Source of the DNA: an uncultured Clostridia bacterium
Lineage (GTDB): Bacteria; Bacillota; Clostridia; Christensenellales; Borkfalkiaceae
Assembly (NCBI GenBank): GCA_947624965.1
Contig: CANQMN010000010.1
Location: 1 to 64,000 of the forward strand
Direction: 5' to 3'
Length of the DNA: 64,000 nucleotides
Part shown: piece after piece, positions 36,675 through 53,916 of the stretch
Layout: every line of letters starts with the position of its first letter
Position numbering within the stretch: the stretch's first letter is position 1
Notes under the pieces: generated by a model
Database searches by the model: none
What the model was told of the DNA's origin: nothing
What the model saw: only the letters and a program-made list of their open reading frames with translations
Position numbers and translations under genes: made by a program

Positions 36675-36869
36675 TTCGATTCCTCCTTTCGGTAAATGAT
36701 TTGATTCCATTATAGGCATGAGATGTTGCTTTGTCAATAAAAAAACCATGTTAAATGTTTATTTTTTATCAAAAAAATCAATATAGAATAAGATTATGCC
36801 AAGTAATACTTCCCTCCCTGCATCCGATTTGGATTTATAATGAGGAAAAGAGGTCGCGAGGGCATTCCC

Positions 36870-37223
36870 ATGGAAAAATCGGAAATCATTGCAAGGATCG
36901 GCTATATTCGGGTTCGGGCGAAGCTCACGCAAAAGGGCCTCTCCCTCGGGATCGGGATGAACCCCAACTATATCAACCGCTTGGAGAGCAAGAAGGACTT
37001 CTTGCCGAGCCTCGAAGTACTCCTCAAAATCATCGAAGTATGCCGCTCCACCCCCGAGGAGTTCTTTTATCATGACATTGCGCAATACGAAAAGGACAGA
37101 GAACTTGCCGCCAAGATCGATGATCTCCCCGCCCATGTCAAAGAATTCGTGATGAACTACGACCCCGAACTCATGGATATGTTTACCCGCCTCAACGAGA
37201 AATTCGTGCGCCTCAAAAAATAA
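36870..37223 (+). CDS. XRE-family HTH regulator (paralog of 47361 CDS)
   Basis: IGYIRVRAKLTQKGLSLGIGMNPNYINRLESKKDFLPSLEVLLKIIEVC. Confidence 0.88.
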   Translation: MEKSEIIARIGYIRVRAKLTQKGLSLGIGMNPNYINRLESKKDFLPSLEVLLKIIEVCRSTPEEFFYHDIAQYEKDRELAAKIDDLPAHVKEFVMNYDPELMDMFTRLNEKFVRLKK

Positions 37224-37235
37224 AATAAAGCAAAA

Positions 37236-37274
37236 AGAAGTCCGAGGCGGACAGGCGTCCGCTTCGGACTTCTT
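37236..37274 (+). terminator. Intrinsic terminator after XRE gene
   Basis: AGAAGTCCGAGGCGGAC / GTCCGCTTCGGACTTCT. Confidence 0.75.
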
Positions 37275-37278
37275 GGAT

Positions 37279-37477
37279 CTACCGGTATCTTCGCTGCGCT
37301 CGATGGCTTCGGCTTCGGCTTCGCCTCGCGCGGACTTGAACCGGCGACCTTTTGCCCTCCCCAAAAAACGATCGCTCTGCGTTTTCTTCTTACCTTCCGC
37401 CCTTCTCGATCGTTTTTCGGGGACCCCATGCTTTTAATCGGCAGGTCTAACGGTCCAAGCCGAACGAGCATTTTTTT
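37279..37477. repeat. Direct repeat R1 (~200 bp) with tRNA T-arm fragment and internal inverted repeat
   Basis: Near identical to R2 at 37482; CGGACTTGAACCGGCGACCT at 37331. Confidence 0.85.
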
Positions 37478-37481
37478 AGAG

Positions 37482-37673
37482 CTACCGGTATCTTCGCTGC
37501 GCTCGATGGTTTCGGCTTCGCCTCGCGCGGACTTGAACCGGCGACCTTTTGTTCTCCCCAAAAAACGATCGCTCTGCGTTTTCTTCTTACTTTCCGTTCT
37601 TCCCGATCGTTTTTCGGGGACCCCCATTCCTTTAATCAGCAGGTCTAACGGTCCAAGCCGAACGAGCATTTTT
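37482..37673. repeat. Direct repeat R2 (~200 bp), second copy
   Basis: See R1; CGGACTTGAACCGGCGACCT at 37528. Confidence 0.85.
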
Positions 37674-37682
37674 CAAAAAAAT

Positions 37683-37703
37683 GAGACGGGCAAAACCCGT
37701 CTC
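37683..37703. terminator. Hairpin with flanking A and T tracts
   Basis: GAGACGGG CAAAA CCCGTCTC TTTTTTT. Confidence 0.7.
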
Positions 37704-37710
37704 GTTTTTT

Positions 37711-37756
37711 TGGAGCTACTGGCCGGACTTGAACCGGCGACCTGCTGATTACGAAT
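37711..37756 (-). pseudogene. Displaced 3' half of host tRNA-Thr(CGT) (att site, left)
   Basis: Revcomp ATTCGTAATCAGCAGGTCGCCGGTTCAAGTCCGGCCAGTAGCTCCA. Confidence 0.88.
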
Positions 37757-37887
37757 AATACTGACCCTACAAAATGACTTGCGCTCATTGTGTCGTACTA
37801 TATTGTTTGCGTGACTTGCGTGAGTTTCGTAAGTTTCTTCGTAGGTTTTGTATCTTGCGTAACTTGCGCCCCGTTACGCCACTTCCG

Positions 37888-37904
37888 TTACAGATTTTTT
37901 ACAG
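37888..37904 (+). repeat. Left copy of 17-bp end repeat TTACAGATTTTTTACAG
   Basis: Identical to 51978-51994. Confidence 0.85.
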
Positions 37905-38048
37905 ATTACAGAATGGAAGCGGTCGCCCTTTGCAGATTTTCATTTTAGCGTATTCAATACCGAAAGTCAAGAAAAACTGCCGCCGTTTCGGAATAATCTT
38001 GAAAAGTCCGCAAAAAGTGCCCGCTTCCAGCGATTATGTCAGGGCAAC

Positions 38049-39569
38049 TCAATACGGTGCGGCAAGTTCCGATTCATAGTACCACTTTGCACCGAGCAAC
38101 GGAGCATTCGCATTTCCTGTTTCGGGGGCAACGCCGTCTGCCGAACCGTCATCAATCGTGATTTCCTGCTTCTGCTGTTCAGTCCCGCCGTAATAAACGG
38201 TTTGCAGGCTATCACAGCCCCAAAAGGCGGCGTTATCGACATAAGCAAGCGTTACGGGGATAATCACCGTTTGGAGAGCGGAGCAATCCTGGAAAGTCAA
38301 CCGCTCAATTCGTCGGAAGTTTCGGGGTAGTTTAATTTCCGTCAAGGCGATACAGCCGCTGAACGCTTGCTCTCCAATCGTCCGAATACCTCTCGGAAGG
38401 TCGAACGTGCCAAGCGACACGCAATCCTTAAACGCTCTCTCGCCCACTTGAATGGTGTAATCGGAAAGTGTTATCTGCGACAAGGCAGAACACCCCTCGA
38501 AAGCACACGCATAGACGATTTTCGCCCCGTATTCTGCCGTAAACTCGGTAGCACGGTCATCTTTAATCCTCATCAAGACCATATACGGGTTATATTCGTC
38601 CCCAAGATAGTAGGCATTATTCTCTTCCGTGTAAGCGAGATTAGGAAGCAAATCATAGCCGAACGAGCTATTTATCTCCGACACTCTGTCGGAGATATTT
38701 ATATTCACGAGGTTTTTACAGTCCGCAAAGGCGAAATACCCGATACTTCTAACGTCATCGTTCAAAACGACGGTTTTTAACTTCGTCGCACCCTTGAAAG
38801 CATAATCGGCGATTGCCACAACCCGTTTTCCGTTATGTGTTTCGGGTATCTTGACATACTCCAAATCTCCCGCTTGTTCGGGCGCACGCACCTCATATTC
38901 GGTGCTATTCGGAATTTGATTGAAAATAAGGCAATCGGTCGTGTATTGTGCCGTTACCGTCATATCCTGCGTGATATTGGTAAAGTCGGTTATATCCCAC
39001 ACGCCCGAATTGCCGTATTTTTCGGGGACACTCGGAATATCCGTCAAGTCGAAGCCATAAAAGACGGTTTTGACAATATCTTCTTCGTCAACCGCCTTGA
39101 ATGTAATCGTGCGACGGACGAGCCGCCCCTTCGCAAGTGCATTTATCCATTGTTCTTCCGTGCCGTAATAATCGGGATTGTACTGTAAAAACGTTTCATA
39201 CGCAGATTTACCGTCTTTGCCGTCAGCTCCGACGTAACCATCAACACCGTCCCGACCTCTTAACCAGTCCAAGAAGTCAGCCTCCGTCCCGCTATGACCG
39301 TCTGCAAGCCAAATATCATAGGCAGACAAACCGTCCTTCCCGTCATCGCCGTTTGTTCCGTCCTCGCCGTTCTTTCCGTCCTGTCCTTTCAGCCAATCCA
39401 AAAAGTCGAGTTCCGTTCCCGTATAGCCGTTATCAAGCCAAATCTCATAAGCGGACTTGCCATTGATTCCGTCTACACCGTTTTTACCGTCGCCGCCGCA
39501 AGCCGAAAGGCAAATCGCGGCAAGGGCAACGGTAAGAGCCAAGAGTACCAATACAACTGTTCTTTTCAT
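38049..39569 (-). CDS. Surface lipoprotein: collagen-like GXX segment + BspA-type leucine-rich repeats
   Basis: Lipobox LSAC; GDGKNGVDGINGKSAYEIWLDNG repeats; LRR_5 segments (YAFKGATKLKTVVLNDDVRSIGYFAFADC). Confidence 0.88.
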   Translation of the reverse strand: MKRTVVLVLLALTVALAAICLSACGGDGKNGVDGINGKSAYEIWLDNGYTGTELDFLDWLKGQDGKNGEDGTNGDDGKDGLSAYDIWLADGHSGTEADFLDWLRGRDGVDGYVGADGKDGKSAYETFLQYNPDYYGTEEQWINALAKGRLVRRTITFKAVDEEDIVKTVFYGFDLTDIPSVPEKYGNSGVWDITDFTNITQDMTVTAQYTTDCLIFNQIPNSTEYEVRAPEQAGDLEYVKIPETHNGKRVVAIADYAFKGATKLKTVVLNDDVRSIGYFAFADCKNLVNINISDRVSEINSSFGYDLLPNLAYTEENNAYYLGDEYNPYMVLMRIKDDRATEFTAEYGAKIVYACAFEGCSALSQITLSDYTIQVGERAFKDCVSLGTFDLPRGIRTIGEQAFSGCIALTEIKLPRNFRRIERLTFQDCSALQTVIIPVTLAYVDNAAFWGCDSLQTVYYGGTEQQKQEITIDDGSADGVAPETGNANAPLLGAKWYYESELAAPY

Positions 39570-39884
39570 AGCGTTTATACGCTCCTTAAAATGTATTTAC
39601 GCCGTTTGGCGCATACAAATATTATAGCAACAAACGCTCTCATCTCAAATTGCCAACAAAAAAGGACTAGCCGTATCTTCCGACTAATCCTTTCTTCATA
39701 TCGCTTGTAATCGCTTAAATGCCGCCTAAAACGCCGCAAGCGTTCTTTCGGTCAACTTCACAGGGAAACCGTTCTCGCTCGCCAAAATGCCAATTTGGAC
39801 GGCTCTTTACCGTTTGTCGATAGGTTCGACCTTGTTTCTTATTTACAGCAGTATTATGGTTTCTGCGGTTATCTTCTCTGCTAG

Positions 39885-40895
39885 TTAAAACAGTTCTCCC
39901 CAGTTGTGAGCGGCATTTAGCCCGAGACTATTTATCGGGCATAGGCTTTCAAAGGCAAACCTAAATTTACTATGAGAGCCCTTCTTTAATCTCGACCAAT
40001 ATTTGTTTATCTCATCTACAAATCTTATATGGTCGCCCACAAAGTCCATTTTCCCATTTTGATATAAAAAGTAGACTTTTCCTTTCTCGGAATACAAAAT
40101 TGATTCCTGCCCATATTTCTTACAAAGGTTCAACGCCCTTTCCTTGAAATTGGGCTGACCTTGATTCGGGACAAAGAAGCTATGCTCGTATTCGATTTCC
40201 CCGTTATCTTCTCTTGTATATTTCCCTCGTAGGGGAATATAGCCCAATCTTTCGTTCGCATTATTACCAGTAAGGTCAACCCGAAGTTCTCTTACTTTGT
40301 CTAGTTCATCTTGTTCCGACATACCCAGTTTATGAGTAGATATAATGAAAAAACCGCAGTCAGAATCGAGGTGCTTCTGAACCCTGTTCATAGAGGACTC
40401 AACTGCCGATTCACCCATAAAACTTTTAACTATCTTGGGATAAAGTCCCTCATTTAATAAGTCGTTGATTTTCTTGTCTACAAATTCCATAGTCGTATTA
40501 TCGGTAGGTTCGACCTTTACGGGCTTGCCCGCCCGCTCTAAATCCTCGATATTCTGCCTTGTACCTTTGCTTACACCGTCCCAAATCATATAGCCGCAGT
40601 CGCAATCGGCTGTCATCGCAATATCTTTTTGCCGATAGAACTCATACCCGCGCTTATCGCTTTTGAGGGCAACGACCGACCAACCGCCGACATTATTCCG
40701 CGGCACGTCGCCGCTACAATATACCGTTACTTGCCTATATCCGCGCTCCGATAAAAGCCTTTGCACGGACAAATCTATCCCGTAACAGTCCCCGATAAGA
40801 ATAGAACAATCCCCGCCGATATAAGCGTCTATCTGCTGGGTCATTTTTTTCGTGAGTTTCGTTTGATTTTTGCTACCGCCGATAAAGACCTTCAT
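39885..40895 (-). CDS. SLOG-like (YspA-like Rossmannoid) N-terminal domain fused to uncharacterised C-terminal domain
   Basis: MKVFIGGSKNQ...ILIGDCYGIDLSVQRLL...VYCSGDVPRNN...KDIAMTADCDCGYMIWDGVSKGTRQNI. Confidence 0.65.
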   Translation of the reverse strand: MKVFIGGSKNQTKLTKKMTQQIDAYIGGDCSILIGDCYGIDLSVQRLLSERGYRQVTVYCSGDVPRNNVGGWSVVALKSDKRGYEFYRQKDIAMTADCDCGYMIWDGVSKGTRQNIEDLERAGKPVKVEPTDNTTMEFVDKKINDLLNEGLYPKIVKSFMGESAVESSMNRVQKHLDSDCGFFIISTHKLGMSEQDELDKVRELRVDLTGNNANERLGYIPLRGKYTREDNGEIEYEHSFFVPNQGQPNFKERALNLCKKYGQESILYSEKGKVYFLYQNGKMDFVGDHIRFVDEINKYWSRLKKGSHSKFRFAFESLCPINSLGLNAAHNWGELF

Positions 40896-41761
40896 ACTGC
40901 GTTCCTTTTTACGGGCTTCATATCGTGAATGAAATCCGCTATATCGTAATCATCATGCCCGTCATACAGTTTTATCAAGAAATCCCTATTCAGCTTGACC
41001 CACTCAATGACCTTCGGCAATTCGGACAGGGCGGCAGAATTGCAATCGCCAACTACTTGGGGGACAATATCGGTAAAACAAACATAGACCGCCGAACCCG
41101 CATTTCCATAGATGATACGGTATTGACTTGGGGGAATGCGCTTCCCAATATCGCAAACCCATATTTCCCCAGTTATTCCCGTCCGCTTCTCCCGTAGGCT
41201 TGACATTTCAAAGGGCGGGACGATATAATCCACAGCCCCAAAAGAGATATATTCGCAAGGTACGAACTCCGTCAGCCATACGCCGCTTTCGGAGAGGTAG
41301 AACTTATAACCGTCATCGTGCATTCTACCCGCCGCAATCTCCAAAACGATTGCTTCCCCATGCCGCGCTCCGACACTTAACGCTGTTTCATGATCGCGCG
41401 AAAGATGAACATAATTCCGCGCTTGCTTCTTGATTCCTTCGGCGACGATACCGTCAAGATACTTCCTCGCCGTCCCGTGATACAACAGCGACGGTGGGAC
41501 AACCTCTTTCATCTGCAAATCCACGGCGACGGAATGACCGTAATTTGCCCGTATCTTCGTGTGCGCCTCATCGAAAGAAAAGCGGTGTTTGCTGTCGGTC
41601 GATACTATCCTTTCCAAATCGGAAATGTCAGTCTGTTTTCCCGCCCGCCTGATTCCGCCAATAAGCCTATCAACGTCAGCATAGCCGCCGCTGTCGAGTT
41701 CGACATACGCCGCCGACGGGTCATGCCGCAAGATATAAGATAAATACTTTCCGTCTATCAT
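40892..41761 (-). CDS. kptA: RNA 2'-phosphotransferase (KptA/Tpt1 family) with ~110-aa C-terminal extension
   Basis: LSYILRHDP; KIRANYGHS; LLYHGTARKYL; RNYVHLSRD: complete Tpt1 signature set. Confidence 0.85.
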   Translation of the reverse strand: MIDGKYLSYILRHDPSAAYVELDSGGYADVDRLIGGIRRAGKQTDISDLERIVSTDSKHRFSFDEAHTKIRANYGHSVAVDLQMKEVVPPSLLYHGTARKYLDGIVAEGIKKQARNYVHLSRDHETALSVGARHGEAIVLEIAAGRMHDDGYKFYLSESGVWLTEFVPCEYISFGAVDYIVPPFEMSSLREKRTGITGEIWVCDIGKRIPPSQYRIIYGNAGSAVYVCFTDIVPQVVGDCNSAALSELPKVIEWVKLNRDFLIKLYDGHDDYDIADFIHDMKPVKRNAV

Positions 41762-41764
41762 AGT

Positions 41765-42208
41765 CTATCCTTGAATTGCTCCCGCCTCTTTGAGTACCCG
41801 ATTGACAAGTTCGCTGTCGGTTTCCTCAATTCTCGAAAGTAACATTAACGCTTGCCTATCGGTTATACGCCTTTCATAATGAGCCAAAAACACTCTCGAA
41901 TACGCCTTTATGTACTCCCGCACCGCATTAAGCCCTTTGGGGCTGTCAACGCAGTTTTGGGACAAGTCTTTTGAAAGGCATACCGAAATCAATTCGTCGC
42001 CAATCTGAACCATAACTTGCGGGATCCGAACCTTGCCGCCGTTTCTATCTTTGCCCAAACTGTCAATCCATAGGTCATAGGCTAGTCCCGTGTCCTTCTT
42101 CGACACACAAGCCATTTCATAGAAGGGCTGTCTTGAATTTATGAATTTGATTATATCCAATTCCTTCGCCCTCGCAATATCCGATTGCATACTTCCTGCA
42201 ATCGCCAA
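41765..42208 (-). CDS. Hypothetical protein with LDIIKFINS motif
   Basis: ORF in leftward operon. Confidence 0.6.
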   Translation of the reverse strand: MAIAGSMQSDIARAKELDIIKFINSRQPFYEMACVSKKDTGLAYDLWIDSLGKDRNGGKVRIPQVMVQIGDELISVCLSKDLSQNCVDSPKGLNAVREYIKAYSRVFLAHYERRITDRQALMLLSRIEETDSELVNRVLKEAGAIQG

Positions 42209-42283
42209 ACGCCGCTAAAACGCCGAAAGCGTTTCCCTCGATTACTTTATCACGAACGATATTCGACCGCCCTCAAAGCAATT

Positions 42284-42676
42284 TCAGCTCCTGTCAAAAT
42301 GACACTTGTAATGCTCGCTTCCGTCCTCTCTGACCGATACGGGAATACCGTTCAATCCGAAAAGGTGTTTTATTTCGTCAGCCAAGTGCAATATATTGGC
42401 ATTCAGCCATATTGTCGCCTTGCCGTTCCGAATTTCAACCCTGCCGCGCGGATAATAGTCAAACGGCTTTCCATGCGTTGTCTTTTTCGGCAAGGCTATC
42501 CACGTCGCCTTGTGGTTGTAACTCATTCCGTCGGACGAATTCAACCCTATGAAATCAACGGGAATGCCGTCCATATCGCAACCCTTTGCGAACATGAGAA
42601 TACGATCGGGAGACAGTTCATCTTCCGTGTCAGCCAAAACCCAAAATATTCCGCGTGAAATCCCTTCGATTTTCAT
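42284..42676 (-). CDS. Hypothetical protein
   Basis: ORF abutting the upstream gene at 42676. Confidence 0.6.
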   Translation of the reverse strand: MKIEGISRGIFWVLADTEDELSPDRILMFAKGCDMDGIPVDFIGLNSSDGMSYNHKATWIALPKKTTHGKPFDYYPRGRVEIRNGKATIWLNANILHLADEIKHLFGLNGIPVSVREDGSEHYKCHFDRS

Positions 42677-43278
42677 TACTCGGCGACGGGAATGTTTATC
42701 TCCAACCAGTCAAAGGAGTTAAAGTCCTCGTCGTTTTGCTCGCTGTCATAGACTTTGTAGATAGTACCGTCCGTTGTTACTTCTTCCGTCAAAATACGGC
42801 TCGAAGCGGAGAATTTTTTATGTATTTTGAGTTTAGCCTTACCTTCATCGCCCCATGCCGTAACCCCGACACCTTTAAGGAATTTCAAAGAGTTATAGAA
42901 TGCGTCGATACACTCTTGGTAGGTCGCAAACCGTTCTTCGTCAGCCACCCACCCCGATTGTGCATTGTAAAACTCCGCGCAGAAATACGCCCCGTCGCTG
43001 TCCGACAGACACTCTGCAATCAGGCGTTGTTCGCTCTCCATATACGCCAACAGAAAATCCGCAAGGTGTACTCCCTCTAAAATGTGTCCTTTGCGGGTTT
43101 TCAAAATATGATCGGGGTAAAGGGACATGAGTTCTCTGTATGCTTCATGCTTTTCGTTAACGGAAAAGTTTTCGGCTCTCTGAATAAGATAAATTGCTTC
43201 TTCGGGGGAGAACTCATGATTGCTCTTTTTGAGCTGTTCCGCAAGTTCCTTTGAATTTACGAATTTGATTACGTCCAT
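42676..43278 (-). CDS. Hypothetical protein with MDVIKFVNS N-terminus
   Basis: ORF overlapping the upstream gene. Confidence 0.65.
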   Translation of the reverse strand: MDVIKFVNSKELAEQLKKSNHEFSPEEAIYLIQRAENFSVNEKHEAYRELMSLYPDHILKTRKGHILEGVHLADFLLAYMESEQRLIAECLSDSDGAYFCAEFYNAQSGWVADEERFATYQECIDAFYNSLKFLKGVGVTAWGDEGKAKLKIHKKFSASSRILTEEVTTDGTIYKVYDSEQNDEDFNSFDWLEINIPVAE

Positions 43279-44165
43279 TGTTCATACTCCTCTATAATTT
43301 TTGTTATTATTTCCAACGGTGCGGGGGAACCCGCCCGAAAGATACGATATTCTTTGCGTTCCATTGGGGGCTTCTTTTCTTCCTCGGCAAGCGTCGAGTA
43401 ATCGATATAGCCCTCATCGAGAACTTCTTCCGCCGTAAAGGTCAGAATGTCTTGTAGGAATAGCCGCTTCTTTTTGTTTCGTCGCCTTTGGTAGTCTGAT
43501 ACAATGCCTTCCACCATGCGCACGAACCGTGTGCGATCGCACCTGCAAGCGGCGGCGCAAATATGCGCTATCCGACAAATCACGTCAAAACTTCCGCACT
43601 CGCCGTCATAAGCCGAATCAAGGTGTGCCGACAGATACCTTTCCATTCGGTCAAATTCTTCCCGTGTATAATCATCCTTATGAATAAGCCGCCTATATTC
43701 GGCGTATAGGTGTTTTGTCGCATAAGGTTCAGACAGCCCTATATCGCAAACTTTTTTGAACTCCGCAAAACTCAACGGGGATTCAAGGTGTGTCGTTTCG
43801 TGTCCATAGTCAAATTCTATGAATTTTCCGACAGCCCAATTCACGCCGCCAACTCGCCATGCGATATAGTCAAAGATACCCGTGATTTTGGCATTGTCTT
43901 TGTCTGCAAAAATCACTTCATCATTATCATCGGTCAGCCCGCATTCGGCGGTGCAGAAAGCCTCGAAGTCCTCAAACACCTTTGCGGCGGGAGTGTCATC
44001 CAAATTCTCGTAACTGCTGATTTTGTCCTCGACCTCACGCTTGAAATAGTGCTTTTCATCTTCACTTACCGCATAAATCACACTCGGCTTGCCTTTGCCA
44101 ATGTTATTCTCAACGGCAACAAATATCCGTTTTTTCTTGTATATATCGGTACTATTATTGTTCAC
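43269..44165 (-). CDS. Uncharacterised family, paralog of the C-terminal half of the upstream gene
   Basis: GTG start after GGGAGGAACAGG, overlapping the upstream stop; AVSEDEKHYF, IGLSEPYATKHLYAEYRR, DRMERYLSAHLD. Confidence 0.7.
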   Translation of the reverse strand: MNNNSTDIYKKKRIFVAVENNIGKGKPSVIYAVSEDEKHYFKREVEDKISSYENLDDTPAAKVFEDFEAFCTAECGLTDDNDEVIFADKDNAKITGIFDYIAWRVGGVNWAVGKFIEFDYGHETTHLESPLSFAEFKKVCDIGLSEPYATKHLYAEYRRLIHKDDYTREEFDRMERYLSAHLDSAYDGECGSFDVICRIAHICAAACRCDRTRFVRMVEGIVSDYQRRRNKKKRLFLQDILTFTAEEVLDEGYIDYSTLAEEEKKPPMERKEYRIFRAGSPAPLEIITKIIEEYEQWT

Positions 44166-45903
44166 CCTGTTCCTCCCACACCCCCAATGGTTCTGGAATA
44201 AATGCCCGAACACAAGATTCCTTTCCCGCCTCGATGATCTCTTTTACGATTTGGAAGTTTTCGGGGTTCAGATTTAGGTAGATTTTATATAACCTACGTC
44301 CCAAGGGCGGTTTCCTGCCGTCGCTCTCAATACTTCTATAATCAACCTTGCCTTCGCAAGCGACCATTTCCGCAGTATCGCGCAACAACAAAAAGAGATG
44401 AGTTTTCTTATATCCATTCTTTCTGCGCTTATAGTCATCGACAATGTAATCCATAAGTGCCGAGAACCGCTTATAATCGCATTCACACATCATCGCGCAC
44501 ATGGCAAGTATGCGATATAAGACCTCTCCGCCGTTTACAATGGTTTTATGGCGATGAAACACGTCCAAATGGGCTTTGACATAACTCTCCATTCGGTCGA
44601 GTTCTTCTTCCGTGCAAGTGTCGTTGTGAATGTACTGCCGCTCGTATTCCTCATATAAGCGTTTCGTCGCATACGGCTCGGACAGTCCTATGCCGCAAGA
44701 CTTTTTGAATTCCTTAAAGGGTAAAATGTTTTCCCGATACAGCATTTCGACACGATAACCGCCCTCAATATCGACCGACCGTATCTGCCACAATGAGAGA
44801 TACGCCGACACCGCTTTGTCGAAGTAGCTTTTCGGTCTGTCGGCAAAGACGACCGTGATATTCTCCGTATCTATACCGCATTCCTCGGTGCAAAAATCCG
44901 CAAATTCCGCAAACACTTTTACCACGGGCAAATCATCTTCTTTGTCAAGGGAACGTTCGTTGTATTCGCTTAAATCCCCCTCGAAAGTGCGCTCGAAATA
45001 GTGCTTTTCGTCCTCGCTGACGGCACGGAAAACATTCGGCTTGTTCTTCCTCGAATTGTTTTCTATATGGGCGAATATGTATTTTCTCTCGGCTTTCCGT
45101 AAGTCTTGTTTCTTCAAAACGACGGAATCACACACCAAAACCGAAAGCGTTACGGGGTTGAATTCTATCCCCGTGATATTCTCGTTCAGATACTCGCACA
45201 AGGCGTATATCTTTGCGCAGAAATACAAATATCTTGCCCTGTCGGGTGTCGCTTTCACCCGTAAATCCTCGGGGAAAGAGTTATAAACCCTCATATTCTC
45301 GTCGAAAAGAGCGTGTTTTATCTCGTCCGGCACAACACAATCGCCCACAATACATTTTTCGGCGTGAAAAAGCCGCTTGCTTTTGCCGTACAGTTTTATA
45401 TCAAACGGAATAACACTCCTCGGGAAAAAGCCGTGTAAGAACTTGCTCGCAACCTTCAAAAAAGAGGAGGTAATCCGAATATACTCCGTGTCGTATTGCT
45501 CCCGAAAGAAATATTGAACCGTATCTTTAAGGCAATCCTCAAAGTCGAACACGGTCTTAACAGCCTGCGATAAAGCACGCAAATCTCTTTCCGAACCGTC
45601 AAACCTCAACTCGCTTTGCGGGGCAATATTCTGTTCGGAGAGTTCTTGCGCAACATACTTGCATAACGCCTCCGACCATTTCCCGTGTTGAAACGGCTCC
45701 TGTTCTTTCATACCAGTTATTGTATTGAACAGGAAGGCAAATTCGGGGTAATCGGAGAAGCACTTAAAAATATCTTCGATATGCTCCGCGCTCCCGAATA
45801 TTCCTTTTCGGGGATCGCAAGCATTATAGAGTATGGCGTAATTCCGTGCGGCAACGCTTTCTTCTTCATTGATACTTTTTACACAGTCGATAAATGTAGT
45901 CAT
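44155..45903 (-). CDS. Uncharacterised protein (~582 aa) of the same family
   Basis: Start MTTFIDCVKS; AVSEDEKHYF, IGLSEPYATKRLYEEYER, DRMESYVKAHLD. Confidence 0.7.
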   Translation of the reverse strand: MTTFIDCVKSINEEESVAARNYAILYNACDPRKGIFGSAEHIEDIFKCFSDYPEFAFLFNTITGMKEQEPFQHGKWSEALCKYVAQELSEQNIAPQSELRFDGSERDLRALSQAVKTVFDFEDCLKDTVQYFFREQYDTEYIRITSSFLKVASKFLHGFFPRSVIPFDIKLYGKSKRLFHAEKCIVGDCVVPDEIKHALFDENMRVYNSFPEDLRVKATPDRARYLYFCAKIYALCEYLNENITGIEFNPVTLSVLVCDSVVLKKQDLRKAERKYIFAHIENNSRKNKPNVFRAVSEDEKHYFERTFEGDLSEYNERSLDKEDDLPVVKVFAEFADFCTEECGIDTENITVVFADRPKSYFDKAVSAYLSLWQIRSVDIEGGYRVEMLYRENILPFKEFKKSCGIGLSEPYATKRLYEEYERQYIHNDTCTEEELDRMESYVKAHLDVFHRHKTIVNGGEVLYRILAMCAMMCECDYKRFSALMDYIVDDYKRRKNGYKKTHLFLLLRDTAEMVACEGKVDYRSIESDGRKPPLGRRLYKIYLNLNPENFQIVKEIIEAGKESCVRAFIPEPLGVWEEQGEQ

Positions 45904-46083
45904 AATAACCTCTTTGGGCGTATATCGGGATACCAATATTATACCATATTTGAATTTTCAAAGCCGTTGCGAAGGCTTTTTGCGGCGGGAATGCTAAAAT
46001 TCCCTGTTTAATAGTAACGCCTATAAGCGTGGGGCTTATAGGCGCAGGGGAACATTATCATAGGGCATACTGCGCTTCCCACA

Positions 46084-46305
46084 TTAGGTTTGCGCACCCC
46101 AATATTGTAAATCGGCTTCCCCATAGTCCGTCCCTGCGAACGGGGCAATAGGCTTACCAGGAATTTCCTTTACTCTGATATATTGCCTTGTGGAAATATC
46201 GAATTGCCCTATAAGACCGTGCTTATAGGTGTAGTAGTAAATGTAAGAGGACGTTCTATTGATATATCCGATATTCCTGCGCATATCATCATATACTTGT
46301 TCCAT
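46084..46305 (-). CDS. Hypothetical protein (73 aa)
   Basis: Short ORF in operon. Confidence 0.45.
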   Translation of the reverse strand: MEQVYDDMRRNIGYINRTSSYIYYYTYKHGLIGQFDISTRQYIRVKEIPGKPIAPFAGTDYGEADLQYWGAQT

Positions 46306-46335
46306 GTTCGTTTTCTCCCTTTCAAGCGGTATGCT

Positions 46336-46986
46336 TTATTTCCGCTGTTCCCAATGCAGAAAGTCAAACTCCAAGGGCGACACGGATTCCCCGTCGCAAA
46401 TCTTCTTGACCTGCTTCTGAAAGAGATTGTACTGTTCTTCATTCAGCGTGTTCCAAGAAACAGCCCCGCTTACGGAAATGCTCTTTACCAATGCCAACTC
46501 TTCTGCCGTAGCCGAGTATTGCGTGTCGGACGAGAGCAATTCGTATGTAATTTTGGCGATGATACTGTCAATAGGGCAATGGCACTTCGCCCATACGGAA
46601 TCGTATTGGGGGAAATATCCCGCAACGACATTACAGCAGAACATATACTTGAACGTCATATTGATAAACTTCTGCCAAATGCCGTATTTCATACCGTACT
46701 CGCCGTTCTTGCAGAGCGTAGAATGCCACAGTTCGAAGTCGGATACGATTTTATCGCTATGAAGCAATTCCTGTTTCAGAACAAGTTTGATTTTCTCCTT
46801 GTTCGCAATAATGGGACTGCCCGCATTGAACCTTTCCCGCAAAGCGGCGTCTTTCCATGCTTTCAGCAAGCAGTAGTCCAGTACCGCTTCCTCGGTTGCG
46901 CTTTTTTCTCCGATCGCGGTTTTCATTGTTTTCGAGAACGCTTCCTCGAAGAACTCCGATGCCTTGATTTTTGTCGTTTCGTTCAT
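46336..46986 (-). CDS. Hypothetical protein
   Basis: Start MNETTKIKASEFFEEAF after GGAGGTCATC. Confidence 0.65.
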   Translation of the reverse strand: MNETTKIKASEFFEEAFSKTMKTAIGEKSATEEAVLDYCLLKAWKDAALRERFNAGSPIIANKEKIKLVLKQELLHSDKIVSDFELWHSTLCKNGEYGMKYGIWQKFINMTFKYMFCCNVVAGYFPQYDSVWAKCHCPIDSIIAKITYELLSSDTQYSATAEELALVKSISVSGAVSWNTLNEEQYNLFQKQVKKICDGESVSPLEFDFLHWEQRK

Positions 46987-47199
46987 GATGACCTCCAAAA
47001 ATTTTTTTCGACGGGTATATTATAGCACAAAAAAATTTTCAATGTTTCTGGTGAAGCGTTTTTTCGGCGGGTTTGCGAAAAAATTTTTGCGACTGCTCCC
47101 AAAACCCTTCTCAAACCGAATCTCCGAATAGCGGTGCTTCCGCTTTTTGCCTTCCAATTCTTGAACCGTAATACACCTCATACACTATTAGTCAGAAAC

Positions 47200-47228
47200 A
47201 TTATACACTTTTCAAGTGTCAAAGTCAA
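47200..47228 (-). promoter_or_regulatory. Leftward promoter with embedded inverted repeat
   Basis: Minus strand TTGACT-17-TATAAT; ACACTT-TTC-AAGTGT at 47205-47219 in the spacer. Confidence 0.7.
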
Positions 47229-47261
47229 GCGATTACCACTTTATATGTGTATTCAATTTGG

Positions 47262-47280
47262 AAAAAATAAACATACAACA
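47262..47280. promoter_or_regulatory. Candidate XRE operator, also found inverted at 36749-36767
   Basis: AAAAAATAAACATACAACA vs AAAAAATAAACATTTAACA. Confidence 0.5.
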
Positions 47281-47360
47281 CTACTTTGACAATTTACTCT
47301 CGCCTAGCGAAAGCAGGAATTGAATTATAATAGTTAGTATAGACTATTATGTAAAAAGAG

Positions 47361-47723
47361 GTGTCAGACTTGGATAAAATAGAGATTATCAATCGGATAG
47401 GCTATATACGGGTACGCGCAAAGCTGACACAAAAAGCGTTGTCGAACGCTCTCGGCATGAATCCGAGTTATATCAACCGTTTGGAGTGCCAAAAGGACTT
47501 TTTACCGAGTGTCGAGGTCTTAATGAACATAATAGAGGTGTGCGGAAGCACACCCGAGGAATTCTTCTATCACGATATTACAGCCTATGAGCGGGATTGT
47601 GCCATAAAGGAAAAACTTGACAGCCTACCGAGCGAGGTACGGGAGTTTATCCTCGACTGTAATCCCGACCTTATGGACATCTTCATCAGATTGAATTCTA
47701 TGATCGTCAAGTCCGACAAGTAA
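47361..47723 (+). CDS. XRE-family HTH regulator
   Basis: GTG start; IGYIRVRAKLTQKALSNALGMNPSYINRLECQKDFLPSVEVL. Confidence 0.88.
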   Translation: MSDLDKIEIINRIGYIRVRAKLTQKALSNALGMNPSYINRLECQKDFLPSVEVLMNIIEVCGSTPEEFFYHDITAYERDCAIKEKLDSLPSEVREFILDCNPDLMDIFIRLNSMIVKSDK

Positions 47724-47921
47724 ATCCTTTCCTAGCGAAATTGACCTAAAATCAGCGCAATTTCACCAATCCCCTTCGGATTTTTTCCACTCCAATACTG
47801 TACGAGGATAACCCATATCGACTGTTTTTCTGCAATCCTCGCTTAACAGCCGCAACCGCCGCGCAAGACTGCTTATCCCCACACGAACAACTCCATACAA
47901 ACAAACCGCCTAAAAAGAGCC

Positions 47922-48323
47922 TCATTTCTTTTTAGGCGGTTCTTTATTTTCCAAATAATCTTTGATTGCTTGTATTTGACTATGCCAAATACTGCTCATA
48001 TCTGCCCTAGAAAGCAAAAATTTTACCATTGCACGTTCATCATCTTCATCGGTGATTTCCACCGAACCCCAATGATTGTACCAGTAATATACCGTACTTT
48101 TGCTGATTCCGTACAACTTCATAATTGTTCTATACGAGATATGCCATTCCTTCATCAAATCATGTGCGCTGTTTTGAAGAATGGCTTTTTTATTTTTGGC
48201 TTTTAATGTTTCATCATCTTTGCAAAGACAGCGGCAACGAGTACAGAAATACCGTTGTCGCCCATATCTTGTGTGTCCGAACTTCACAATCGTCTTTTTT
48301 GAATTACATTTTGGACATTTCAT
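47922..48323 (-). CDS. Zinc-ribbon + HTH protein (InsA/IS1-like N-terminal architecture), no catalytic domain seen
   Basis: CPKCNSKKTIVKFGHTRYGRQRYFCTRC; ISYRTIMKLYGISKSTVYYWYNHWG. Confidence 0.65.
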   Translation of the reverse strand: MKCPKCNSKKTIVKFGHTRYGRQRYFCTRCRCLCKDDETLKAKNKKAILQNSAHDLMKEWHISYRTIMKLYGISKSTVYYWYNHWGSVEITDEDDERAMVKFLLSRADMSSIWHSQIQAIKDYLENKEPPKKK

Positions 48324-48435
48324 TTAGCACCTCTCGACCGCTATAATTTTACCTCATTTTGCCCCTGTTCGTCAACACTTTTAGGAATGAAATCCAATAG
48401 TAAATAAAAAACGAATTTCGGAGCAGAGGTGCATT

Positions 48436-48645
48436 ATGAACGAAGAAAAAAGAACTTTACCGAGATATAGAACGGTCAGAGAATGCTTTGAAGAAATTAA
48501 GCGGCTTGACGAGCAAACCGTGATTTCGGAATACTTTATCCGTCAGCTTTGCAAGAGCGGACAAGTCAAGTGCTATCACAGCGGCAACAAAACGTATGTC
48601 AACCTTGACAGCCTGTTTGACTACCTCAATAATGAACCGCCGTAA
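48436..48645 (+). CDS. Small excisionase/HTH-type DNA-binding protein
   Basis: ISEYFIRQLCKSGQVKCYHSGNKTYVNLDSLFDYL. Confidence 0.65.
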   Translation: MNEEKRTLPRYRTVRECFEEIKRLDEQTVISEYFIRQLCKSGQVKCYHSGNKTYVNLDSLFDYLNNEPP

Positions 48646-48755
48646 TTCGCTGTCGGCATAAGGGCTTATGGTGAATGACACGGCGGGGAACAGGGCGATG
48701 AAAAGCACCGCCCACTTGATTATCCTTTACTCCCTTCCACCACACAATATCTTCT

Positions 48756-48787
48756 ACCCTTATACCCTTAACCCTTTATTACCCTTA
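48756..48787 (+). repeat. Iteron-like heptamers ACCCTTA x4 upstream of rep
   Basis: ACCCTTA 48756, 48764, 48781; ACCCTTT 48771. Confidence 0.6.
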
Positions 48788-48827
48788 CGACTTTTTTAAC
48801 GAAATAACTAAAAGGAGAACTTAAAAA

Positions 48828-49751
48828 ATGATGTGTAAATACCCTATAAAAGCTATCCGAAAACAAAATAAACTAATAATTCTAAATATAGATGAAATAA
48901 AAAAGGATTGCCAGACAACTTTTGCGCGCGCCGCCGTTTTTCTTCCTTGCCGCCAATGTTTAATGTGCCGTTGGGAGCAATATCACGACTGGTCGCTCCG
49001 CTGTAAATTAGAGGCAAAACGGTATAATAGCAACCTATTTGTAACGCTAACTTACGAGGAATCACCTATCATCGTCAAGAAAAGCGAACTGCAAAGATTT
49101 ATGAAAAATCTGCGAACGCATTTTGAAAGACACCTTGGGCTTACGGGCATACGCTTTTTCGGGTGCGGTGAATATGGAAAAGAAAATCTGCGCCCGCATT
49201 ATCATATAATCATTTTCAACTGTCCCCGCTTCGGCGACGAAAAGTTTTATAAGAAAGACAAGGCGGGATACCCTCTTTACAAGAGTGAAACAATAGAGCG
49301 TTTATGGGGCAAGGGGTTTTGCACGATTGGAGGGGTGTCGGACAAATCCATTGAATATGTAACTCGCACATTTATAAAAAGCTACTATATTAAACCGCCA
49401 AATAAAAACGCACCCGCTTTCGTTTCCATGTCAAAACAAGGCGGGATTGGTATGCAGTACTTAACCGAACACTTCGACGAAATAATAGAAAATGGCTTCA
49501 TTGAGTACGACGGTCGGCTATATCGCATTCCCTACGCATACAACCGTAAAATCGAAGAAAAAATCGGAACGGAAGCATATACGGAGAAAGTCGTCATCCC
49601 GCGCAAGGAGCAAGAAGAAGCGTTTCGCAAAATGCTGGGCGAAGGCGGTCAACCGCCTACTGATGTTCCTACTGATATTATAGAAGAACCCGAAGCCATA
49701 GAGCAACGAATTAGCAAGCTGATTGCGCACGACGAAGAAACCCCAATCTAA
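48828..49751 (+). CDS. rep: Replication initiator, Microviridae (gokushovirus VP4)-type HUH Rep
   Basis: PCRQCLMCRWEQYHDWSLRC; LFVTLTYEE; FFGCGEYGKENLRPHYHIIIF; MSKQGGIGMQYL; DGRLYRIPYAYNRK. Confidence 0.88.
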   Translation: MMCKYPIKAIRKQNKLIILNIDEIKKDCQTTFARAAVFLPCRQCLMCRWEQYHDWSLRCKLEAKRYNSNLFVTLTYEESPIIVKKSELQRFMKNLRTHFERHLGLTGIRFFGCGEYGKENLRPHYHIIIFNCPRFGDEKFYKKDKAGYPLYKSETIERLWGKGFCTIGGVSDKSIEYVTRTFIKSYYIKPPNKNAPAFVSMSKQGGIGMQYLTEHFDEIIENGFIEYDGRLYRIPYAYNRKIEEKIGTEAYTEKVVIPRKEQEEAFRKMLGEGGQPPTDVPTDIIEEPEAIEQRISKLIAHDEETPI

Positions 49752-49752
49752 A

Positions 49753-49906
49753 CGCCGTATAAGCCTTCTAAAAGGCTTTCCCCGCCAATCTGCGGCAACT
49801 CCTATCGAGGGAACGCAAGTTCCTATTAAAACGTGCCGAGCGTAAAAACTCGGCGTATAAAATGGGCTTGCGCGGGGTAGTGCCGCAGAAAGAACAACAC
49901 CCTCGA
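49753..49906. other. Multi-hairpin structured intergenic region after rep (possible origin or ncRNA)
   Basis: AAGCCTT/AAGGCTT; CTGCGGCA(49790)/TGCCGCAG(49881) enclosing GGAACgcaaGTTCC and GCCGAG/CTCGGC. Confidence 0.5.
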
Positions 49907-49978
49907 ATTTTATATAATATATCCGTACTCTTATGACTTTACGGAGAAAGTAAACTATCGTATAAAGGAGATAAAATC

Positions 49979-50392
49979 ATGAGAACCACAAGACAAGAAA
50001 AGAAAAAGAAAGCAATCGAGTACCTTACAACGCTGAATATTTACGAGGACTATATCACAGGATTCCGCAAGTACGACAATGTATGCTTTTTCGAGCGTTT
50101 CGGCGGCTATTGGGCTTTCCAAGAGCCTGAACTGATGAAGAAGATACGGGAAGTCGAGAATAGGTATAATTGCCTCGTCTATGCCGTTACGCACGAATAT
50201 ACGGAGTTCGGGGAACTTTACGATCTTCTCATAGTATCGGGCTACCAGGAAGATTGGGACGGGCTACTCGTGAAAACCAACTCGGGCTTTCTCGCCTTTG
50301 CTTATGTCTGGAACAAAGACGACAATAGTTGTAGCGAACTCGGCACGATAGGCGTTCGGTCGTTCGGCGGCGGCATAATGAGGTGCGCATAA
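49979..50392 (+). CDS. Hypothetical protein, translationally coupled to integrase
   Basis: TAATG overlap with integrase ATG at 50392. Confidence 0.6.
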   Translation: MRTTRQEKKKKAIEYLTTLNIYEDYITGFRKYDNVCFFERFGGYWAFQEPELMKKIREVENRYNCLVYAVTHEYTEFGELYDLLIVSGYQEDWDGLLVKTNSGFLAFAYVWNKDDNSCSELGTIGVRSFGGGIMRCA

Positions 50393-51816
50393 TGAGGAAC
50401 GAAAGGCATAAACTTTGCTATCCGAATTACAACAAGAACGGCGTTCTGATTTCATACCGATTTTTCTATACGGGCAAAGACCCTTTAAGCGGTGCGCCAA
50501 AGCAATTTACCAAGTGTTGGAAAGTCCCCACGGGCTTGACCGCAAAGGAAATCGAGCGGGAGCGCAGAGCGGCTGAAATCGCTTTTATCCAAGAAGCGGA
50601 GAAGAAATCGCTCGGAACATATATCCCCGACACCAATGTCCTTTTCGGCGACTTTGCCGACCAATGGCTTGAAACCGTGAAATTGAGGAGCGACAGCGGC
50701 TATTCGAGCTATGAATCCGCAAAAACTCATCTCCCGATACTGAAAGCCCATTTCGGGAATTGCCTGTTACGCAATATCACCCCGCGAATGATACAGTCCT
50801 TCTACAACTACCTTACCACACGCACATACACGAAAAGCACCGTAACCGTCAAGAAGTCAATCCAAGACCTCTTACGGGAGCATAAGCTGAACAAGACCAC
50901 AGCGGCAAAAGCCTGCGGCATTGGCAAGCCTACTTTTGCGGCGGCTACGGTTATAGGCAAGAAAGTCAGTTTGCAGACGGCTCAAAAGATATGCGGGTAT
51001 TTCAAAATCCCGATAGACCGTTATTTTACCGTCGAAACCGTGCGGGAGAAATACTCCGTCGCTACGAACAGGGGCATACGGACACTTCTCGTTATGATAC
51101 TCAACTCCGCACGGAAGCAACAACTCATCGAGTACAACTACGCCACAAAGGAATATACCGAGCCTATCAAGGGGACGGAAAAGGGCAAGCGTTTTTACAG
51201 CGACAGCGAGGCACGGCGATTTCTCCAATTGACAATGGAAGAGAAAGACATCCGAAAGAAAACCGTCTTTTCGCTATTCCTCTATTTGGGCTTACGCAAC
51301 GCCGAACTATGCGGGCTTGAATGGCAGGACATAGACTTTGAACAAGGCACTCTCACCGTATCGCGCAACTCGATTTACTTTTCCGACTTCGGCGTTTGCA
51401 CGAAAGCACCCAAAACGCAAAACTCGGCGAGGACGGTATCAATGCCGCCGAAGCTGATAGAGTTACTGCACGAGTATAAGGAATGGTGGGACGACCAAAA
51501 GGAACAGCACGGCGACCTTTGGCAAGAGAGCAAGCGGCTGTTCCTCAACGACAACGGGAAACCGATACACCCTTCCACGCCGAGCAACTGGCTTGAAAAG
51601 TTTCAGGCAGAACACGGGCTAGCCCACGTTTCTCCCCATGCGCTCCGACATACAAGTATAACCTTACAAGTAATGGCGGGTATCCCCATAAAAGCCGTAT
51701 CACAACGAGCAGGACACGCTAACGAGGCGATAACGCTTAATATCTACACGCACCTACTGCAAGAGGAAGATAGACGAGCCGCCGCAAAGTTCGACACTTA
51801 CCTTTCGCCACAGTAA
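50392..51816 (+). CDS. int: Site-specific tyrosine integrase with internal XRE-like HTH
   Basis: YLGLRNAELCGLEW, HALRHTS, GHANEAITLNIYTHL; insert KTTAAKACGIGKPTFAAATVIGKKVSLQTAQKICGYFKIPIDRYF. Confidence 0.93.
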   Translation: MRNERHKLCYPNYNKNGVLISYRFFYTGKDPLSGAPKQFTKCWKVPTGLTAKEIERERRAAEIAFIQEAEKKSLGTYIPDTNVLFGDFADQWLETVKLRSDSGYSSYESAKTHLPILKAHFGNCLLRNITPRMIQSFYNYLTTRTYTKSTVTVKKSIQDLLREHKLNKTTAAKACGIGKPTFAAATVIGKKVSLQTAQKICGYFKIPIDRYFTVETVREKYSVATNRGIRTLLVMILNSARKQQLIEYNYATKEYTEPIKGTEKGKRFYSDSEARRFLQLTMEEKDIRKKTVFSLFLYLGLRNAELCGLEWQDIDFEQGTLTVSRNSIYFSDFGVCTKAPKTQNSARTVSMPPKLIELLHEYKEWWDDQKEQHGDLWQESKRLFLNDNGKPIHPSTPSNWLEKFQAEHGLAHVSPHALRHTSITLQVMAGIPIKAVSQRAGHANEAITLNIYTHLLQEEDRRAAAKFDTYLSPQ

Positions 51817-51837
51817 AGAAAAAGAATCCGAGGAAAG

Positions 51838-51868
51838 GAAAAAGACTATCTTTCGATAGCCTTTTTCT
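51838..51868. terminator. Intrinsic terminator after integrase
   Basis: AAAAAGACTATC tttc GATAGCCTTTTT. Confidence 0.65.
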
Positions 51869-51874
51869 TTGTTT

Positions 51875-51950
51875 TGGAGCTACTGGTGGGACTCGGACCC
51901 ACGACCTGTTGATTACGAATCAACTGCTCTACCAGCTGAGCCACAGTAGC
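51875..51950 (-). tRNA. tRNA-Thr (anticodon CGT), complete, CCA encoded
   Basis: GCTACTGTGGCTCAGCTGGTAGAGCAGTTGATTCGTAATCAACAGGTCGTGGGTCCGAGTCCCACCAGTAGCTCCA folds as a 76-nt cloverleaf. Confidence 0.95.
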
Positions 51951-51977
51951 ATTTTTACCTGTTTTTGCAGGTGTTTT

Positions 51978-51994
51978 TTACAGATTTTTTACAG
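51978..51994 (+). repeat. Right copy of 17-bp end repeat TTACAGATTTTTTACAG
   Basis: Identical to 37888-37904. Confidence 0.85.
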
Positions 51995-52024
51995 TTTCTT
52001 TGCCGTTAGCGTCGCAATCCTCGA

Positions 52025-52069
52025 TTTTCAGGCGATTTCCACGAGTTTTAGGTGGTTTTCAGGCGATTT
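52025..52069 (+). repeat. 14-bp direct repeats TTTTCAGGCGATTT (31-bp period) in right end
   Basis: 52025-52038 and 52056-52069. Confidence 0.7.
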
Positions 52070-52097
52070 GCTACTGTCCGTATCATTCAACCAAATA

Positions 52098-52136
52098 ATT
52101 ACGAATCAGCTGCTCTACCGACTGAGCCACAGTAGC
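52098..52136 (-). pseudogene. 5' half of host tRNA-Thr(CGT) (att site, right)
   Basis: Revcomp GCTACTGTGGCTCAGTCGGTAGAGCAGCTGATTCGTAAT; anticodon stem GCTGA matches TCAGC of the left 3' half. Confidence 0.88.
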
Positions 52137-52292
52137 AAAGATCTGCGCTTCTTCGGATGCGCTTTTTCATTATAAAAAAATCTGCGGCAAAATGCAAGCG
52201 TTTTTGCGCCCAAAATAAATTTTATTTTTGCGGGAATTTGCGTTCGCGCGGTCTTTTTGCGCCGTGCGCGCCGCCGAACGGGACGCGCGCCG

Positions 52293-53223: not shown

Positions 53224-53916
53224 TCAGGAAAAAACCTCCGCGATCTCCGAGACGGCAAAGCACAGCTCCGCTTGCAGATAGCGCAGATCTTTTGCAAAGA
53301 GAATGCCCGAGGCGATCTCCGCGCCCCGCCGCTCGGCGCGGAGGAGCAGGGCGTTCCAAGCCGCGAAATCCCCCTCGCCGTTCGCCGCGCGCAGACCTTT
53401 GAGCGAGGCGCGCACACCCTTCACCGCCGTCCGCGCTTCCTCCTGCGAAAGTTCCGCGCGTTCGAGCCCGTTCGCCGCGTCGAAGAGCATGCGGGCGCAG
53501 CTGTCCGCCGTGCGGGCGTTCGCCCGCACCTGCTCCGAGAGGGCGGCGCGGTCCCCCTCCAAGGAAAGCGGGTCGGAGGCGCGGCGGACGATGCGCGTCT
53601 CCACGCCCTTCCCCGCCATGTTCTCCTGCACAAAATGCGCGTCCTCCTCCGAAAAATAGCAGGCGAGCACGACGGCGTCGTCGCCGAGCAGATATCCCGC
53701 GCCGCCCGAGAGATACACCTGCCCCGCGACCGCGCCCGCCGTCTCCGAAACGCAGTCCTGCACGAGGAAAAAATATTCCTCGTCGAATACCACTTCCGCG
53801 TATTTTCTTGTGCTCCAACGGAGCGCGCCCAAAAACAGCGCGACGACCCCCGAAAAGAGCGCGAGCAGCAGGAAGAACGCCTTCCAACCGCGCCGATGAT
53901 AGTTAGCGCCGAACAT
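53224..53916 (-). CDS. Hypothetical membrane-anchored protein
   Basis: N-terminal TM AFFLLLALFSGVVALFLGAL. Confidence 0.65.
   Translation of the reverse strand: MFGANYHRRGWKAFFLLLALFSGVVALFLGALRWSTRKYAEVVFDEEYFFLVQDCVSETAGAVAGQVYLSGGAGYLLGDDAVVLACYFSEEDAHFVQENMAGKGVETRIVRRASDPLSLEGDRAALSEQVRANARTADSCARMLFDAANGLERAELSQEEARTAVKGVRASLKGLRAANGEGDFAAWNALLLRAERRGAEIASGILFAKDLRYLQAELCFAVSEIAEVFS

Follow-up and report, generated by a model that had tools for sequence, protein, structure and literature searches.

The window analyzed here, a 64,000-nucleotide stretch of the genome of an uncultured Clostridia bacterium (family Borkfalkiaceae), contains on its minus strand a host tRNA-Thr(CGT) gene that is cut in the anticodon loop (Table 1). 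Both halves include the 9-bp core ATTCGTAAT, and joining them over this core yields a 76-nt tRNA-Thr(CGT) whose first 75 nt are 100% identical to the intact gene in 31 same-genus genomes. An earlier inspection of the letters without database searches (the sequence-only reading) had described these halves as rebuilding a perfect tRNA-Thr, and its coordinates and sequences proved correct. The sequence after the 5' half at 52098 is non-complementary, the target tRNA is not rebuilt at either junction by an element-borne fragment, and the displaced 3' fragment lies at the far end of the element. Inside the element, 147 bp past the core and on the same strand as the split gene, is a complete tRNA-Thr(CGT) with the anticodon stem GTTGA/TCAAC, also pointed out in the sequence-only reading and recovered by both ARAGORN and Rfam.

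Table 1. Positions in the window of the split gene, the element and its features
Feature	Position	Strand	Basis
Host tRNA promoter, TTGCAT-17 bp-TATAAT, upstream of the split 5' half	52169-52197	-	Sequence
Host tRNA-Thr(CGT) 5' half, ending in the core (52098-52106)	52098-52136	-	100% to native gene of congeners
Putative decayed tRNA 3'-half remnant in attP	52069-52097	-	Acceptor strand CAGTAGC kept; Rfam hit; relatives
TGTAAAAA repeats immediately ahead of the carried tRNA, probably arm-type sites of the integrase	51951-51998	-	Conserved position; putative function
Carried complete tRNA-Thr(CGT)	51875-51950	-	ARAGORN; Rfam, 69 bits; common to L062 in another host
Hairpin flanked by T runs, probably a terminator used by both the integrase and the carried tRNA	51835-51868		Sequence; putative function
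Tyrosine integrase, tail to tail with the carried tRNA	50383-51816	+	Pfam PF00589, 8e-28; phrog_1
Replication initiator, microvirus type	48828-49751	+	PF23343; phrog_942, 5e-74; Microviridae matches of about 30-35%
Small protein, possibly a DNA-binding excisionase	48436-48645	+	Position and size only; no family match in Pfam or PHROGs
TTTTTTACAG repeats near the other end, similar, probable arm-type sites	37888-37911	+	Sequence; putative function
Integrative element	37757-52097		14.3 kb between core copies, one copy its own; rejoined halves; empty site (L081/G188)
Host tRNA-Thr(CGT) 3' half, starting with the core (37748-37756)	37711-37756	-	100% to native gene of congeners

The empty site was found in a same-genus genome (G188), where a single intact tRNA-Thr(CGT) lies between the neighbors of the window's split gene: a diacylglycerol-kinase-like protein (46% identity) and a protein of the type encoded at 53224 (64%) upstream, and an HTH protein (97%) and a 430-amino-acid protein (87%) downstream. 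Element-free relatives, a comparison suggested by the sequence-only reading, gave the same picture: in each of 50 congener tRNA loci that lack a carrier element, exactly one gene has this anticodon arm, and none of the loci contains a split copy. Because each of these loci holds one gene and no split copy, no tandem pair preceded the insertion; two tandem tRNA-Thr genes in element-free strains, which the sequence-only reading had named as its refutation, were found in none of the 50. All 39 tRNA hits in the window's genome, a 34-contig draft from which a second Thr(CGT) copy could be missing, were typed individually at their loci; they included Thr(TGT) and Thr(GGT), and the copy at 51875 was the only intact Thr(CGT) found. 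These comparisons confirm a 14.3-kb mobile element that has cut the only tRNA-Thr(CGT) gene of the host in two and has a complete putative substitute just inside its edge.

Besides the genes in Table 1, the element encodes HTH proteins, an S-adenosylmethionine-lyase-like protein, a BspA-type LRR protein, and unknown proteins. Capsid, portal, and terminase families were absent from its larger open reading frames (ORFs) in Pfam searches and, for ten of them, in PHROGs, which gave only a microvirus-type Rep. PADLOC detected no defense system in it beyond a weak HTH match.

Several further features of the region were recorded. The element encodes a KptA/Tpt1 RNA 2'-phosphotransferase (40892 to 41761, minus strand; Pfam, 4e-43). 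KptA/Tpt1 is an enzyme of tRNA splicing in eukaryotes; a link to the split tRNA is speculation. Residues of about 155 to 215 of the integrase form a Cro-type helix-turn-helix-like segment between the SAM-like and catalytic domains, which seems present in relatives of the integrase, including that of a phage contig (L151). Two similar HTH regulators occur, one inside the element (47361 to 47723) and one outside it by the integration site (36840 to 37223); the outer one is the 97%-identical protein that also adjoins the tRNA in the empty-site genome. Downstream of the host 3' half (37240 to 37710, minus strand), tandem units of ~195 bp include fragments of the tRNA 3' half (GGTCGCCGGTTCAAGTCC), together with a CCCCGAAAAACGATCG hairpin and a decayed copy in inverted orientation. 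Similar 194-bp tandem units lie beside an intact tRNA-Thr in another genome (L107, G194:C34, 1 to 400), and the unit is possibly a tRNA-derived repeat.

The carried tRNA in related elements

A second Clostridia metagenome-assembled genome (L062) matched the window at 98% identity from the integrase through the terminator and the carried tRNA to the end of the spacer; the match stops precisely at the core, beyond which the host half is different (GCTGGTG...GAGTG). Because the integrase-tRNA-spacer module is shared with L062 in another host, the carried tRNA is element-borne. Two claims of the sequence-only reading, that the element carries a full spare copy and that classical 3'-segment restoration does not occur, are thus borne out by a module common to both genomes up to the core and different host tRNAs beyond it. 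The L062-type junction was also present in G629, which belongs to another family of the order and is probably the same genome as L062; a 98%-identical module in a host of another family means that the module has crossed families, and that tRNA alleles move between bacterial families. The carried tRNAs of the window and L062 differ at 6 of 76 positions, versus 21 of 1,527 in integrase plus spacer (p=0.001), and the differences include a compensatory T-stem pair (51-63). The carried tRNA of the window thus changes fast but keeps its fold.

The same arrangement, or traces of it, occurs with related elements in 18 additional bacterial genomes, at three different tRNA genes. A split host tRNA together with a carried copy was present in at least 13 other genomes, and the split-half pattern (TAGAGCNNNTGATTCGTAATTAT) occurred in 13 of 399 genomes of the family, distributed over four genera. 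Because this arrangement recurs in at least 13 other genomes and same-genus synteny reveals the empty site, chance does not account for it. The left end was assembled in the window, G145, G205, G135, G072, G276, G359, G379, G103, and G389, and across two contigs in G081; every one of these cases has a complete tRNA-Thr(CGT) 125 to 150 bp past the core on the same strand. The position of the TGTAAAAA repeats is conserved in all Thr carriers of the family. G081, a candidate canonical integrator, was reassigned as a carrier, since its module is spread over contigs C5 and C19, which overlap and show a split half and a carried tRNA. In G081, a TIR-domain protein (L097, G081:C19, 15535 to 16437, minus strand; PADLOC TIR-TM, 6e-71) adjoins the carried tRNA. 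Such a scar can be misannotated by programs as an additional tRNA gene; ARAGORN makes this error in G145.

The same design was found with integrase relatives at tRNA-Arg(CCT). In G150, a carried tRNA whose stem is altered yet still paired (AAATC/GATTT) comes after the split half; G063 yielded both host halves and a carried tRNA that is very divergent in sequence; two split halves stand one after the other in G074; and G096 also fits. The design apparently occurs at tRNA-Arg(CCG) as well, in G059, where the far end was not found. In every case, the carried tRNA had the anticodon of the gene destroyed, whether Thr or Arg. In IMG/VR, one phage contig (L151) combines a split Thr half with a Thr(CGT) carried 136 bp beyond its core; further integrase relatives or an attP of the genus type were not found in that database. 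By contrast, G201 and G226 hold canonical integrators in the same tRNA-Thr gene. A tree of the integrases groups the Thr carriers of this order in a single clade with support of 99/98 and places the Arg(CCT) carriers in a different clade. Two observations concern the Arg(CCT) genomes: G065 has both an intact tRNA-Arg(CCT), near a contig end, and a split 3' half with the same downstream sequence (L174, L179), as though the sample contained both the empty and the occupied site, and G063 (L175) and G065, of different genera, have identical integrases.

The GTTGA/TCAAC allele carried by L062, G145, G135, and G205 is identical at every letter to the intact tRNA of five congeners (G193, G230, G009, G186, and G172). 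In G009, it lies beside the same diacylglycerol-kinase-like gene, marking the native locus. G072 and G359 carry the allele native to the window's genus, and in G072 the carried allele differs from the element's own host half. Because the same alleles are native in congeners, the carried genes are captured host alleles. The diverged stem that the sequence-only reading described as compensated is thus real, but an origin of the change inside the element did not hold up. Protection against self-integration through the anticodon-stem change was rejected for the same reason, and is also contradicted by carried-type tRNAs with the GTTGA/TCAAC stem that are themselves split in G152 and G333. Conversion of the T-arm from the host's own Thr(GGT) was unsupported, as the T-loop is the same and the D-arm is different.

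In G152, the host half precedes two identical 176-bp units, the first followed by a carried-type 5' half and the second by another 5' half that reaches the contig end; G333 has two such 5' halves in succession. This pattern would be expected from later copies integrating into the carried tRNA. Insertion at the first junction is disfavored, because consecutive split halves would not result.

Probable decay of attP and proposed expression of the carried gene

Of special relevance to the origin of this design is the sequence that follows the core in attP. In G145, G205, G152, and G333, the 36 nt after the core match the tRNA 3' half in register at 20 to 22 positions, a score reached in at most 1 in 20,000 shuffles, with 14 to 15 matches in the best other register; the anticodon stem is gone from these remnants. 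In the window, the ungapped match was not significant (12/36), and Rfam scored 52069 to 52136 as a weak tRNA (35.6 bits), because a decayed 3' half seems to follow the split 5' half; the remnant proposed for the window thus leans on its relatives and on this hit. Elements of other genera had no clear remnant after the core by ungapped register match against shuffles, so that only moderate confidence attaches to the order that these sequences suggest: canonical restoration first, acquisition of a whole tRNA next, and decay of the attP 3' half last. This order is one of those left open for actinobacteriophages (PMC10865867), and the apparent decaying 3' half is, by its looks, an intermediate between restoration and whole-tRNA carriage.

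In the proposed mechanism, crossover at the 9-bp core, catalyzed by the tyrosine integrase, joins attP to the anticodon loop of the only host tRNA-Thr(CGT) gene. With no usable tRNA 3' half in attP, the host gene is left in two pieces, and the complete tRNA-Thr(CGT) supplied by the element on the same strand, beyond the arm-site repeats, would take over. The carried gene is most likely promoterless and would be transcribed by read-through from the host tRNA promoter left upstream, with RNase P trimming its 5' end from the transcript; it keeps the core and can itself serve as a target for later copies. A host promoter lies upstream of the split half in most carriers checked, and the carried tRNA is codirectional with and close to the split gene in all carriers seen. 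The 14 carrier spacers contained no promoter-like site better than their own shuffles, and no terminator-like site was present on the tRNA strand between the split half and the carried tRNA. Read-through would be the simplest reading of such an arrangement, and selection may favor the replacement. Among the Thr codons of the window's host ORFs, ACG is the most frequent (386/630, with a naive choice of ORFs), which speaks for replacement; against a need for the carried gene, Thr(TGT) may read ACG by wobble. The sequences themselves establish the split, the element's ownership of the carried tRNA, its status as the sole intact copy found, the conserved architecture, and the stacking. As a whole, the explanation that the carried tRNA-Thr(CGT) replaces the split host gene and is read from the host promoter is judged highly probable.

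Other readings place the boundary or the function elsewhere. A classical integrator would end at the core of the carried tRNA (51912 to 51920) and restore that gene with a 3' half, making 52098 an older scar or part of a tandem pair. Stacked scars (G152 and G333) and canonical use of the same gene (G201 and G226) are compatible with such a history, but it is the outer and not the inner 5' half that rejoins perfectly with the 3' half, the spacer and carried tRNA travel with the integrase to the host of L062, no congener has a tandem pair lacking a split, and the window contains no second 3' half of the carried type. Classical restoration with a boundary at 51912 was therefore rejected as extremely improbable, on the single genes of congeners, the L062 module, and the rejoining of the outer half.

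How the carried gene acts is a separate matter. It could replace the host gene in trans from its own promoter, as in mycobacteriophage Fionnbharth, whose tRNA promoter has been demonstrated (PMC10865867), and unusual promoters escape consensus scans. However, promoter-like sites in the 14 spacers did not exceed chance, and trans action would not need the constant position and direction of the carried gene, so this reading is considered unlikely. It could also be a bonus that re-creates the target, helps translation, or evades a tRNA-cutting defense, leaving the host to live on its Thr(TGT); the rapid change of the carried tRNA relative to its flanks and the repeated insertion into carried-type tRNAs (G152 and G333) would fit such a role. 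Against it, the anticodon is always that of the destroyed gene, 57 of 58 good genus genomes have a match to this tRNA sequence (partial and related-tRNA matches included), and no defense gene is evident in the window's element, all of which makes a mere bonus quite improbable.

Replacement of the host gene by read-through can be extended to a general statement, in which confidence is evenly balanced: a clade of Clostridia elements, mostly nonphage, would carry a promoterless full tRNA cassette in the attachment module and put it under the host tRNA promoter upon integration, so that the host allele is exchanged for a foreign one. Such cassettes would originate in other lineages by capture, pass between families, and change more quickly than the flanking sequence, and they would have arisen after the canonical attP 3' half became redundant and decayed.

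Relation to known systems

Replacement of a whole tRNA by integrating DNA was demonstrated experimentally in 2024 as tRNA-dependent lysogeny in actinobacteriophages (Fionnbharth, LeBron, Gaia, and others; Guerrero-Bustamante and Hatfull 2024, mBio, PMC10865867), and its authors left open its frequency outside these phages and its relationship to canonical restoration by a 3' half. The window's element has in common with these phages a tyrosine integrase (PF00589), a short core in a tRNA gene (8 to 17 bp there; 9 bp here, too short to rebuild the tRNA), no reconstruction at the junction, and a cognate tRNA, here Thr(CGT), on the integrating DNA; in both settings, related integrases may be canonical. 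The actinobacteriophages are temperate phages, whereas the window's element has no evident virion genes. Since the searches gave no sign of a temperate phage, the element is not classed within tRNA-dependent lysogeny, although it appears to work alike; a phage with this design is L151. The Fionnbharth tRNA overlaps another gene and has its own promoter (PMC10865867), whereas the window's tRNA lies in the attachment module beside the arm repeats, codirectional with the split gene, with the core retained and stacking possible, and a decayed 3' half is visible in several attPs of the Clostridia elements. This cis design could explain how the carried tRNA is expressed.

Canonical tRNA-targeted islands and prophages (Islander type, PMC4383910; G201 and G226 in the genus) use the same tRNA gene, with a crossover in the anticodon loop and a displaced 3' half at the far end, but they bring a 3' half that restores the gene at the junction, which the window's element does not. 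In prophage-related sequences of Sinorhizobium meliloti, an alphaproteobacterium, an inactivated tRNA is replaced by an element-borne tRNA of the same isoacceptor that resembles genes of other bacteria, as here; the available part of that report describes no cis module, decay series, or stacking (PMC11476347). In the tandem prophage prophiT36-2 of Mycobacterium abscessus, a prophage tRNA-Thr(CGT) was proposed to compensate for an impaired tRNA-Thr at attL, but it lies about 2 kb from attR among prophage-expressed genes, and two prophages form the structure (PMC9934374). Carried full tRNAs are not described in the tycheposon paper. The principle is thus known from actinobacteriophages and also from S. 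meliloti and M. abscessus; what appears to be new is a nonphage element, Clostridia hosts, a tRNA placed in cis within the attachment module, stacking at a core that is kept, and the decay series. Experimental proof of tRNA substitution was previously confined to some temperate phages, and the recurrence of whole-tRNA replacement in small, apparently nonphage Clostridia elements at two, probably three, tRNA genes extends the design beyond them.
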